64,000 nt of DNA from a methane-oxidizing endosymbiont of Gigantopelta aegis (GTDB lineage Bacteria > Pseudomonadota > Gammaproteobacteria > Methylococcales > Methylomonadaceae). The stretch covers positions 319,003-383,002 of the forward strand of contig NZ_JAEHGD010000001.1 of the NCBI RefSeq assembly GCF_016097405.1, given 5' to 3'. Made by a program: the position numbers and the translations under genes. Of this stretch, positions 16,384 to 55,713 are shown piece after piece. Under the pieces are notes generated by a model. That model ran no database searches. It was not told where the DNA came from and saw only the letters and a list, made by a program, of their open reading frames with translations. Within the stretch, counting starts at the first letter, position 1. Every line of letters starts with the position of its first letter.

Positions 16384-16676
16384 AATAACTGATGTTACGC
16401 AGAGACTCTTCCCTCATTCCACATATAGACACTTCAGGCCACTGAGAACACAGAGAATAAAACTGTGCAGCAAGGATAAACAACAGATATTTCAACAGAA
16501 TCGTTGATAACGTCATGAATCCAGACCAGTTAGGGCATTAAACGATACAAACTATAACTCTGTGATCTGAAGTGTCGATAAGAGAGAGACCAGAGATGAT
16601 TTTTTCTTTCACGGTAATGATGAACGGAGAATCAGGGAAATGAAATTAAATAGCCGCTGCGTAACAATCAGTTATT
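16384..16676. repeat. Palindromic repeat family 1, copy A (MITE-like)
   Basis: The element is bounded by near-perfect terminal inverted repeats: AATAACTGATGTTACGCAG (16384-16402) and, on the right, CTGCGTAACAATCAGTTATT (16657-16676). Inside, GACACTTCAG (16428-16437) pairs exactly with CTGAAGTGTC (16567-16576). The interior closely resembles copies at about 54997-55310 and 55471-55699, including the shared words caaggataaacaacagatat and cacggtaatg. It has no coding capacity. It fills most of the 405-base gap between the oxidoreductase and the toxin-antitoxin pair. Confidence 0.85.
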
Positions 16677-16721
16677 AACCCAGCAGCTTCGCATGAAATT
16701 TTCAACTAGGAGCCAAACAAA

Positions 16722-25923: not shown

Positions 25924-26046
25924 GTAACTACTCACCCCTTCAGAAACACTGGGCGTAGGGTATTGATTTTTCAGGCTTGTGCAACAAGGATGTTGCACAG
26001 AGCTACATGGATGTATCTACGCGTCCTTAAAAATCAATACCCTACG
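25924..26046. repeat. Palindromic repeat family 2, copy 1
   Basis: It starts with GTAACTACTCACCCC (25924-25938). A 22-base arm at 25954-25975 pairs with 26025-26046 at 21 of 22 positions. Inside are two hairpins: GTGCAACA-AGGA-TGTTGCAC (25979-25998) and TACAT-GG-ATGTA (26004-26015), giving a Y-shaped fold. Copy 2 lies at 29690-29843 in the opposite orientation. The element fills the gap between the SPOR gene and the convergent unknown gene and may also stop transcription from both sides. Confidence 0.85.
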
Positions 26047-26078
26047 GCCACTAAATGATTACCGTGCGAGTAATAGTT

Positions 26079-29689: not shown

Positions 29690-29843
29690 GTAACTGCTCA
29701 CCCGGTTGTGTTTTAGCCGGAGTAGGCCATTGATTTATCAGGACACGTGAATACATCCATGTAGTTCTGCATAACATCCCTGTTATGCAAGCCTGATAAA
29801 TCAACAACCTACACCTGCTTTTTAGAGGGGGGTGAGTAGTTAC
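29690..29843. repeat. Palindromic repeat family 2, copy 2
   Basis: Bounded by 14-base inverted ends GTAACTGCTCACCC (29690-29703) and GGGTGAGTAGTTAC (29830-29843), 13 of 14 matching. The inner stem pairs TTGATTTATCAGG (29730-29742) with CCTGATAAATCAA (29792-29804). Two hairpins sit inside: TACAT-CC-ATGTA (29752-29763) and GCATAACA-TCCC-TGTTATGC (29769-29788). It is the reverse-oriented relative of copy 1, with changed but still paired stem bases. It occupies most of the 268-base gap before the DUF763 gene. Confidence 0.88.
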
Positions 29844-29864: not shown

Positions 29865-30929
29865 ATGAGAACAGGATATAGCCAGTTACCTTTACATGGC
29901 GGCAGGGCACCACGTTGGTTGTTTGAGCGTATGACGCGTCTAGCACGCGAAATTATCTGCCATCTGGTTTATGAATATGGCGCAGAGGGAGCTTTAAAGC
30001 GTCTTTCCGATCCATTCTGGTTTCAAGCCTTTGGTTGTGTATTGGGATTTGACTGGCATTCTAGCGGTTTGACGACCACGACCTGTGGTGCGCTAAAAGA
30101 AGGAATTAAAGATATGCAGCACGAGCTAGGGTTCTTTGCTGCAGGCGGAAAAGGCCGCGTTGCACGCCGCACACCTCAGGAAATTGAGCAAATTTGTATT
30201 CGAATGGGTTACGATGCCAATACGCTAATTCGCGCTAGCCGCTTATCGGCAAAGGTCGATAGTTCGGCAGTTCAGGATGGTTATCAGATTTACCACCATG
30301 CGTTTTTCTTTACCCAATCAGGGCAATGGTGTGTCGTGCAACAAGGGATGAATGAAGACTCCGGCATGGCCAGGCGTTACCATTGGCTGGGAAATGAACG
30401 GACTGATTTTATCAATGAACCACATTTAGCCGTGTGTTGCGATCACCGTGGCAAGGTACTGAATTTTGTTGCCCGGGAAAGTAAAATTTCGCGCGAGCGC
30501 GTTACACAACTGGCCGCACAGCCAGAAAAAGAACTGGAAACGCTATGGCTGAAACAGCCGGAATTGATCATGCCACGCCGTCACTGGGTGCGCCGTGAAG
30601 ACATCAACCCCAAATATTTGCAGCGCATTCTGTTAAAAACCTATGAACACATGCCGCAAGATTTTGAAAGCCTGTTGTCGATTCAAGGTGTCGGTTCAAA
30701 AACCTTACGCGCGTTAGCGTTAACCGCCGAATTGATTTATGGCACGAAAACCAGTGTACGTGATCCAGCACGTTTTTCGTTTGCACATGGCGGTAAAGAC
30801 GGAACACCTTTTCCAGTCGACAAAGAAAGTTATCAACATACGATTGATATTTTGCACTCAGCATTGAATCGAGCGAAGGTCGATCACAGTGAAAAACGAG
30901 AAGCCTTCAAGAGGCTGGCGCGGTTTTAG
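29865..30929 (+). CDS. DUF763 domain-containing protein
   Basis: A 354-residue protein with the DUF763 pattern: RTGYSQLPLHGGRAPRWLFERMTRL at the N-terminus, then FGCVLGFDWHSSGLTTTTCGALKEG, a VDSSAVQDGYQIYHHAFFFTQSGQWCVVQQGMN core and LLSIQGVGSKTLRALAL, which reads like a helix-hairpin-helix. The family is common in archaea and scattered in bacteria; function is unknown, though the HhH motif suggests nucleic acid contact. ATG 29865 gives the standard N-terminus. It is the last intact gene before the dif-like site, 40 bases beyond its stop. Confidence 0.88.
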   Translation: MRTGYSQLPLHGGRAPRWLFERMTRLAREIICHLVYEYGAEGALKRLSDPFWFQAFGCVLGFDWHSSGLTTTTCGALKEGIKDMQHELGFFAAGGKGRVARRTPQEIEQICIRMGYDANTLIRASRLSAKVDSSAVQDGYQIYHHAFFFTQSGQWCVVQQGMNEDSGMARRYHWLGNERTDFINEPHLAVCCDHRGKVLNFVARESKISRERVTQLAAQPEKELETLWLKQPELIMPRRHWVRREDINPKYLQRILLKTYEHMPQDFESLLSIQGVGSKTLRALALTAELIYGTKTSVRDPARFSFAHGGKDGTPFPVDKESYQHTIDILHSALNRAKVDHSEKREAFKRLARF

Positions 30930-30969: not shown

Positions 30970-30997
30970 AATTCGCATAATGTATATTATGTTAAAT
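30970..30997. other. dif site (XerC/XerD chromosome dimer resolution site)
   Basis: The 28-base site has left arm AATTCGCATAA (30970-30980), centre TGTATA (30981-30986) and right arm TTATGTTAAAT (30987-30997). Compared with the E. coli dif site, the right arm and centre are identical and the left arm differs at three positions, so 25 of 28 match. The XerD arm on the right is perfect. The site lies in a short non-coding gap between the DUF763 gene and a frameshifted gene. This marks the probable replication terminus. Confidence 0.9.
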
Positions 30998-31012
30998 AAT
31001 GTAATATCAATC

Positions 31013-31394
31013 TTAGCCTTGTCCAGCTAACACATAAATGTTTGTGAAACTCGATCCCGTCGCATTGAGCTGCATAAATTCCGCAGCTTTAATGCCGTTC
31101 TGGTTGACATAGTACAGCACCAGGCTGTGTTCTCCGGTCAGCACCTCCAGAACCTGGAATTTTAGAGTAGGATAGGCTTCAACCTTTGATAAAATACCGT
31201 CTGACCGCATCCTTTCCTTTCACTTCTGCCTGGTCTAGCAATTTTGCCGCGATCGGTGACACCAACACAATATCGTCGGCATAGTGCTGCATAATATTGT
31301 CGATGTCATGAGAATTCCAGGCATGTTCGCATTCTCTGGCAAACTGTTGTGCAAATAAATTATCCATCGTAGTTTTTCCAGCTTGATATCTCAT
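31013..31394 (-). pseudogene. NTF2-like/SnoaL-type protein gene with a frameshift
   Basis: On the minus strand the first part (from 31394 or Met 31367) reads MDNLFAQQFARECEHAWNSHDIDNIMQHYADDIVLVSPIAAKLL and ends at a TGA (31179-31181) just after AVRRYFIKG. The neighbouring frame continues VEAYPTLKFQVLEVLTGEHSLVLYYVNQNG to the stop at 31013. Joined, they make one NTF2-like domain of about 120 residues. A single-base indel around 31182-31190 explains the break. NTF2-like proteins include isomerases and binding proteins; no function is assigned. It lies directly next to dif. Confidence 0.8.
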
Positions 31395-31481: not shown

Positions 31482-32501
31482 TTATCCATCCGTTTCATGT
31501 CTCCACACCTTCTTACTTCGGGACATTTGATAATAAGCGAATGAGAACAGTAAAAACACAGCTAAACTGCTAATAGCAATATTCATTGTTAAAGGAATTA
31601 AAAGCAGTGAACTTAGCAATTCAATTGCGATTAAAAATAATAAAATGGACACAATGTGTTCATTGCGCATGCGGTTGCAAAGATAAACGCCTAAAGGTGC
31701 CCCAATGACCACAACCGGGATAGCCGCCAGCCAGTACATTTTTACAGTACTATTAAAGCTATCTGTTACGAAATAATGCAACATAAATCCCGCAATGGCA
31801 TTTATTGCCATCAGGATCACGGATGTCGGTGTCGATACTTTCTCGGTAAGCCTGAAAAGTAAAACCATAACTGAAAAACAAATAATATCGATACCGCTGC
31901 CTACTAGCCCTGTCATGGTGCCACCGATAAAGCCGCTAAACACGATTATGCCTTTTTCTGTGCCATAAAGTTTCGGCAGATACTGACTATAATGTCGCTT
32001 TTGCGTATTGAGCAATAACAATGCGAGCGCAAAACTAACAATCATGGCGGTAAACAACATTTTTACTAAAGCGGCAGAAACAAGTTGTGCAATCACAAGC
32101 GATCCGACACATAACCCAGGCAAACCGCCTAAACTCGCCCACAAGATAAAGCGCCAAGCTACATTAATACGCAGCACGATAATTGTTAGGCTAGCCGCTG
32201 TCATACCAATGCTTTGGATGGCAAGAGAAAATACCTTGGCATTTTGAGGATCAATATGCAATGCTTTGGTAAACACGGGAAAAGCAATTGCTCCCCCACC
32301 CTCGCTGGTTGCACCGGCAATGAATGAACCAACCGTCATGGTCAGCGTAATCGGCCAATTTTGCAGCAAAACAGCTTTAGAATCAGGTTGGGTATACAAC
32401 CACCAAGCGATCCATACCAGTAAGGCTAAGATAACATTTATCGCCAGTGTTTTCTGGTAGAGGTTCTGATTGGCGTAAGAGATGTCCGTATTCAATGTCA
32501 C
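31482..32501 (-). CDS. Sulfite exporter TauE/SafE family permease
   Basis: A 339-residue membrane protein with about nine hydrophobic helices and the TauE/SafE pattern: VGSFIAGATSEGGGAIAFPVFTKAL near the first repeat and GFIGGTMTGLVGSGIDIICFSVMVLLF in the second half. The family exports sulfite, sulfonates or related organic anions; substrate not readable here. The longer than usual N-terminal part has an additional helix. Its start overlaps the stop of the truncated hydrolase by four bases, so they once formed or still form a transcript. Confidence 0.87.
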   Translation of the reverse strand: MTLNTDISYANQNLYQKTLAINVILALLVWIAWWLYTQPDSKAVLLQNWPITLTMTVGSFIAGATSEGGGAIAFPVFTKALHIDPQNAKVFSLAIQSIGMTAASLTIIVLRINVAWRFILWASLGGLPGLCVGSLVIAQLVSAALVKMLFTAMIVSFALALLLLNTQKRHYSQYLPKLYGTEKGIIVFSGFIGGTMTGLVGSGIDIICFSVMVLLFRLTEKVSTPTSVILMAINAIAGFMLHYFVTDSFNSTVKMYWLAAIPVVVIGAPLGVYLCNRMRNEHIVSILLFLIAIELLSSLLLIPLTMNIAISSLAVFLLFSFAYYQMSRSKKVWRHETDG

Positions 32502-54990: not shown

Positions 54991-54996
54991 ATGATC

Positions 54997-55310
54997 TGAT
55001 GTTACGCAGTAACTCTTCCCTCATTCCCATACTCCTGCGTAGGGCCCCATATAGACACAGAGACCACTGAGAACACAGAGAATGAAACCGTGCAGCAAGG
55101 ATAAACAACAGATATTTCAACAGAGTCGTTGATAACATCATGAATCCAGACCATTCAAGGGCATTAAACGATACAAACGATAACTCTGTGCGCTCTGTGG
55201 TCTCTGTGTCGATAAAAGATAGAGACCAGAGATGACTTTTTTCACGGTAATGCTGAACGGCGAATCATGGAAATGAAATTAAAGAGCCACCGCGTAACAT
55301 AAGTTATGAT
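54997..55310. repeat. Palindromic repeat family 1, copy B
   Basis: Left end ATGTTACGCAG (54999-55009) and right end GCGTAACAT (55292-55300) are the same inverted ends as in copy A. A 27-base arm at 55054-55080 pairs with 55184-55210 at 24 of 27 positions. The interior is the same family as copy A. It starts immediately after the fdsA terminator. No coding capacity is seen. Confidence 0.85.
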
Positions 55311-55355
55311 TACTGAAGAAAAAACCATGAATCATTGCTTATCTGGTATCATATA

Positions 55356-55375
55356 ATATATGGTTATACATATAT
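55356..55375. promoter_or_regulatory. Probable ArsR operator palindrome upstream of arsR
   Basis: ATATATG (55356-55362), six bases GTTATA, CATATAT (55369-55375): a palindrome with the same half-sites as the one upstream of arsI (56110-56129). AT-rich inverted repeats of this spacing are typical of ArsR/SmtB-family sites. It lies between repeat copies B and C, about 340 bases before arsR. Confidence 0.6.
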
Positions 55376-55470
55376 TACTATCTAATGTTCCGCCTGGAAT
55401 GACGATTCCTCAGAAACCGCATCCCAATGGGCCGAAAATTTTCGGTCAGTGGTGTTCGAATGGGTCTAAT

Positions 55471-55699
55471 GAATAGACACAGAGAATGGAACCGTGCAGC
55501 CAGGATGAACAACAGATATTTCGACATAACCTCATGAATCCAGATTAGTCAATGGAATTTGAATGATACAAACTATAACTCTGTGTACTCTGTAGTCTCT
55601 GTGTCGATAAAAACAGAAGCCAGAGATGACTTTTTTCACGGTAATGCTGAATGGAGGATCATGGGAATGAAATTGAAGAATCGCTGCGCAACAACAGTT
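55471..55699. repeat. Palindromic repeat family 1, copy C (partly eroded)
   Basis: The segment shares the copy A/B words gaaccgtgcagc, gaacaacagatatttc, aatccaga and acttttttcacggtaatgctgaa. The left stem arm is shortened to GACACAGAG (55476-55484), still pairing with CTCTGTGTC (55597-55605). The right end CTGCGCAACAACAGTTACT matches the copy A end with changes. The left end is not clear; it may reach 55383. It lies just before arsR. Confidence 0.8.
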
Positions 55700-55713
55700 A
55701 CTATTTATTACTT

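Follow-up and report, generated by a model that had tools for sequence, protein, structure and literature searches.

A dif site and its genetic neighborhood

We analyzed a 64,000-nucleotide stretch of DNA from a methane-oxidizing endosymbiont of Gigantopelta aegis (here, the window), which spans positions 319003 to 383002 of a 2.14-Mb contig (C2). The window contains a 28-base element with the same 11-6-11 layout as the dif site of Escherichia coli, flanked on the left by a gene for a DUF763 protein and on the right by a decayed SnoaL-like gene and a gene for a TauE/SafE-family permease (Table 1). The element shares 25 of its 28 bases with E. coli dif. All three mismatches fall among the four outermost bases of the XerC arm, so that the inner 24 bases are those of E. 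coli dif. The E. coli pattern used in the scan is the same 28-mer that is tabulated for Yersinia pestis (PMC2731167). When we rescanned the window, the coordinates, the three-part division, and the 25-base identity in the original prediction were exact, and the center and XerD arm again proved identical to those of E. coli dif.

Table 1 Features at and around the dif site, in window coordinates
Feature	Position	Strand	Evidence or remark
DUF763 protein (PF05559), 354 aa, left neighbor	29865..30929	+	Stop 40 bases before dif
dif, full 28-base site	30970-30997	+	Reads AATTCGCATAATGTATATTATGTTAAAT
dif XerC-binding arm AATTCGCATAA	30970..30980	+	8/11 identical to E. coli dif
dif central hexamer TGTATA	30981..30986	+	Identical to E. 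coli dif
dif XerD-binding arm TTATGTTAAAT	30987..30997	+	Identical to E. coli dif
Maximum of window cumulative GC skew, + to - switch	31001	.	Four bases past dif
Decayed SnoaL-like gene with frameshift, in the gap from dif to the TauE gene	31020..31370 (approximate)	-	Translations
TauE/SafE-family permease (PF01925), 339 aa, right neighbor	31482..32501	-	Homologue directly right of dif in genome G004

A close published comparison is the dif of Methylococcus capsulatus Bath, as given in PMC2731167. It shares 26 of 28 bases with the site described here, including the entire inner 24, and differs at two of the four outer XerC-arm bases (TATG versus AATT here), while three of those outer bases differ from E. 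coli. Carnoy and Roten describe the inner parts of both dif arms as the best conserved (PMC2731167).

The DUF763 gene is part of the context and lies outside the dif mechanism. Its best five relatives, among 80 loci kept, came from Methylococcaceae or Methylomonas metagenome assemblies, which points to a probable source in a gammaproteobacterial methanotroph family. On the other side of dif, the N-terminal piece of the SnoaL-like remnant matched SnoaL_2 (E = 5e-8), and its other piece had no family match. In G004, no more than about 14 bases separate the end of the TauE frame from dif, which leaves no room for a SnoaL-like gene. Rfam and tRNA scans of the window returned nothing.

Several repeats occur in the window. 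A pair of 147-base inverted repeats (25924-26070 and 29697-29843; 74% complementary) encloses 3.6 kb of sequence that carries PAS and chemoreceptor genes as well as unknown ones. The right arm of this pair had at least 37 matches in the genome, itself included, on five contigs (40 of 50 candidates scored), and 21 of the 37 were full-length at 93% identity or more, as in a dispersed repeat family. For the repeat region in G004, 34 matches were listed, of which 27 lie on a piece of it about 90 bases long. The expectation that repeats here should be read in light of the terminus thus did not carry over to the arm beside dif: as a member of a dispersed family with matches over five contigs, it is not special to the terminus. 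Elsewhere in the window, a repeat of about 300 bases, mostly intergenic (families D1 to D5), is present in three copies (16389-16678 and 54996-55705); the two at 55 kb are separated by about 400 bases.

Copy number of the site

A single copy of the site was found in the window and in the genome. A scan of both strands of the window at three or fewer mismatches found 30970-30997 as the sole match, and none of 100 dinucleotide shuffles of the window contained a match at that stringency. Under a base-composition model, chance would supply 4.5e-7 sites per window and 2e-5 per genome. Relaxing the scan of the window to seven mismatches from a dif consensus returned only dif and its own reverse complement; there is therefore no second dif-like copy that could bound an inserted element in the window. 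Several equally good copies elsewhere had been named as grounds for doubting a chromosomal dif. The genome we searched comprises 2,931,369 bases in 10 contigs and is 99.97% complete, with some stretches reading N. Within it, the inner 24 bases had one exact match and no other at three or fewer mismatches, and the backwards control had none.

Strand polarity switches at dif

Cumulative GC skew in the window climbs to its maximum just past dif and returns to near zero at the window end. In 10,000 shuffles of 500-base blocks, no replicate reached the height of this arch. The original prediction was to be abandoned if the skew switched far from 30.98 kb; the observed peak at 31001 bears the prediction out. 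For the chromosome as a whole, skew was assessed from sampled stretches of contigs. All nine printed pieces of C2 before dif, made up of five C2 stretches and four window eighths (the last ending about 1 kb beyond dif), were positive, with values from 0.034 to 0.128. Between dif and dnaA, the remaining four window eighths were negative, as were most sampled stretches of C2. The exceptions were positive stretches at 520-540 kb (+0.081), 1,150-1,160 kb (+0.048), and 1,300-1,320 kb (+0.055), the last of which contains dnaA. The C-terminal domain of dnaA lies at C2:1,306,936, and every sampled stretch of C2 from there to the contig end was positive. Separately, the region C2:513435-540000 combines an integrase domain at 513 kb, the positive skew at 520-540 kb, and two wrong-way KOPS; it may represent either an acquired island or an inversion confined to this region.

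The polarity of KOPS motifs (GGGNAGGG) followed the same pattern. Positional counts came from the first 100 of the 149 places, all on C2. Among these, forward and reverse motifs numbered 19:4 to the left of dif versus 8:34 between dif and dnaA (Fisher P = 8e-7), and from dnaA onward there were 28 forward and 7 reverse. The best single switch point below 1.257 Mb was a tie between the KOPS at 335,823 and 354,460, which flank dif, with 53 of 62 sites consistent. The genome-wide total of 149 motifs (90:59 by strand) was hardly above that of the backwards control, which was balanced (131 motifs; 67:64). Because KOPS are G-rich, their bias partly tracks GC skew. The orientation of dif relative to the skew was considered as a further test and dropped as uninformative, since a plus-to-minus switch looks alike from either strand.

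The dif site anchors the window. Sequence to the left of 30.97 kb belongs to one chromosome arm and sequence to the right belongs to the other, so strand bias is to be read with opposite sign on either side.

Recombination machinery encoded in the genome

The genome encodes the proteins expected to act at such a site. XerD, at C2:1,935,059, scored 393 bits against an NCBIfam equivalog cutoff of 329.6, and XerC, at C4:105,321, scored 359.8 bits against a cutoff of 335.15. An FtsK gamma domain was found on C3 (94.5 bits; Pfam cutoff, 30.6). The corresponding FtsK frame, cut by the end of the locus, aligned to the C-terminal part of the full-length model with 717 bits (cutoff, 1566). The endosymbiont thus resembles E. 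coli in encoding XerC, XerD, and FtsK-gamma and in having dif at the GC-skew switch. It differs in that a search of the genome for MatP gave no match, although the E. coli control matched, and in that the two arms between dnaA and dif appear unequal.

By analogy with the known system, homologous recombination between sister chromosomes would generate a circular dimer. KOPS pointing to dif from both arms would steer FtsK at the division septum, where it would pair the two copies of dif and activate first XerD and then XerC. Strand exchange by XerD and XerC at the TGTATA core would then yield two monomers again, and selection would be expected to maintain a single copy of dif at the strand-polarity switch of the chromosome. 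Binding of XerC and XerD, dependence on FtsK, and recombination at the dif in the window are predictions carried over from that system.

dif in related genomes

We searched for dif in other species of the genus and in genomes of the family. Within the genus, dif was matched in five of six genomes, this one included; the sixth genome is 85% complete. In the family, 116 of 151 genomes had a match, as did 106 of the 128 good-quality ones (this genome counted), and the backwards control had none. At three or fewer mismatches, 35 of the 151 genomes were without a match, 22 of them among the 128 of good quality. The comparison with relatives that the original prediction had proposed came out in its favor. 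Skew changed from positive to negative across dif in three members of the genus (G001, G002, and G005), and sampling of the whole G005 chromosome likewise placed the switch at dif. In G004, the contig holds only the right side of dif, where skew is negative.

The immediate neighbors of the site were less constant. In the 80 kb surrounding dif in G001 and in G005, and in the surrounding 40 kb of G002, neither the DUF763 nor the TauE-family neighbor was matched at an E value of 1e-15, which indicates that dif recurs across the genus with other immediate neighbors. Carnoy and Roten also report dif in differing genetic environments (PMC2731167). A few genes farther away are shared near dif, corresponding to 12.3-14.0 kb of the window in G001 (66% identity) and to 2.0-3.4 kb in G002 (74%). 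In the close relative G004, the right side of dif is collinear with the window; contig C32 carries the DUF763 homologue, and contig C9 carries dif near its start.

One relative, locus L025, had hinted at an element integrated at dif. This candidate was dropped after the scan and the sequence itself showed no dif there. The L025 contig, which comes from a close relative, runs on for 71 bases after the last matched codon of DUF763, and the last base of dif in the window lies equally far from that codon. Its contig number and coordinates coincide with those of C32 of G004, which is presumably the same contig. In the other G004 contig, C9, dif follows after 80 bases, and the opening 50 bases of the contig look, by eye, like the reverse complement of the L025 end. 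An assembly break at a repeat would explain the coincidence.

Seven relatives (G007, G012, G051, G072, G098, G100, and G140) each carry two dif-like sites. In G098, 9.45 kb separates the two; in G100, they are inverted and lie 2.2 kb from each other. In addition, five dif-like sites begin no more than 20 bases from the start of a contig (G007 C76, G012 C53 and C269, G016 C44, and G072 C42). Integration of elements at dif by Xer could account for such paired and contig-start sites.

Identity of the site

We conclude that the 28-base element is almost certainly the dif site of this chromosome, serving chromosome dimer resolution. This reading draws on its single copy, the flip of both skew and KOPS, the presence of genes for XerC, XerD, and FtsK-gamma, and its recurrence in relatives. 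It is an ordinary, normal chromosomal dif and is very probably functional. As such, it is one more addition to a well-described set of dif sites.

Elements that integrate by Xer use nearly identical sites, and of the 116 family genomes in which dif was matched, 7 have a dif-like pair (G098 and G100, for example). On a rival reading, the site would derive from a plasmid or phage, as either a pdif or the att site of a Xer-integrating element, and would not be the chromosome's own dif. We consider this highly improbable here. Only one copy was found genome-wide, with no second in the window even at seven mismatches; the site lies on a 2.14-Mb contig, at the switch in skew and KOPS; and none of the genome's six Phage_integrase matches (E values up to 0.001) falls within the window. 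A chance match, which is no more than a general possibility, has a negligible probability and is already refuted by the 2e-5 sites expected per genome, the absence of matches in 100 window shuffles, the coincidence with the skew maximum, and the recurrence in the family.

The original prediction further held that a chromosomal dif places the replication terminus inside the window. That claim stands as far as the site itself and the switch in skew and KOPS are concerned. It does not extend to where the replication forks meet, which dif alone does not locate.

Arm lengths and the meeting of forks

If the ten contigs form one circle in the order assembled, dnaA and dif are separated by 956,960 bases in one direction and 1,974,409 bases in the other. 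The antipode of the origin would then fall about 509 kb from dif, in the longer of the two arms (957 and about 1,974 kb). As assembled, dif is offset from the antipode of dnaA by 17.4%, versus 2.4% in G005 and 1.1% on the main contig of G001.

What dif marks is the skew switch and the end point for Xer and FtsK; forks need not meet there. Where chromosomes are asymmetric, GC skew reportedly goes with dif and not with the point where forks meet; 113 of 2,027 chromosomes were classed as asymmetric, with skew switching near dif and not opposite the origin (PMC6199493). Pseudomonas aeruginosa PAO1-UW is a described case in which replication ends opposite oriC, away from dif (PMC6199493), and a termination site other than dif has also been suggested (PMC3025954). 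PAO1-UW resembles the endosymbiont, as assembled, in that both skew and KOPS change polarity at dif or close to it even though dif is not opposite the origin. It differs in that its asymmetry arose from a known inversion and its termination was measured (PMC6199493), whereas here we have the sequence of a 10-contig assembly. Given these published precedents, even a real asymmetry in the endosymbiont would be an instance of a pattern already described (PMC6199493, PMC3025954).

A tentative reading, which we consider rather unlikely, is that the replichores are truly imbalanced at 1:2 while skew switches only a few bases from dif and two members of the genus, G001 and G005, have nearly symmetric chromosomes. 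If true, it would offer a natural test between forks being held at dif and skew following dif-linked processes rather than the meeting of forks. The possible asymmetry in this way touches the published question of whether replication ends at dif (PMC6199493, PMC3025954).

The imbalance may instead be the product of misassembly or an error in contig order. Moving the 604-kb contig C3 to the short arm would give arms of about 1.56 and 1.37 Mb, which are nearly balanced. The printed skew was positive in all 13 stretches of C3 and all three of C4, and negative in the small contigs C5 and C6. This uniformity would seem to put C3 and C4 each within a single arm. Both ends of C2 are also positive, which places C3 and C4 in the long arm, provided that C2 is correctly joined. 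Runs of N occur in C2, among them three in the short arm, at 494.9-498.1, 514.2-518.3, and about 900.0-900.3 kb, and may be gaps. A sampled comparison of gene order with G005, a genome in one contig, yielded 142 protein matches, in an order too scrambled to place C3. Rfam gave no match in the seven small contigs (C1 and C10 being N throughout) or in three contig-end stretches, so these searched sequences hold no rRNA. An end of C3 maps to contig C73 of G004, and for the approximately 1.5 kb that follows there, a search of 1.30 Mb of the endosymbiont genome gave no match. The sequence shared between contig ends consisted of one repeat, common to C6 and C9.
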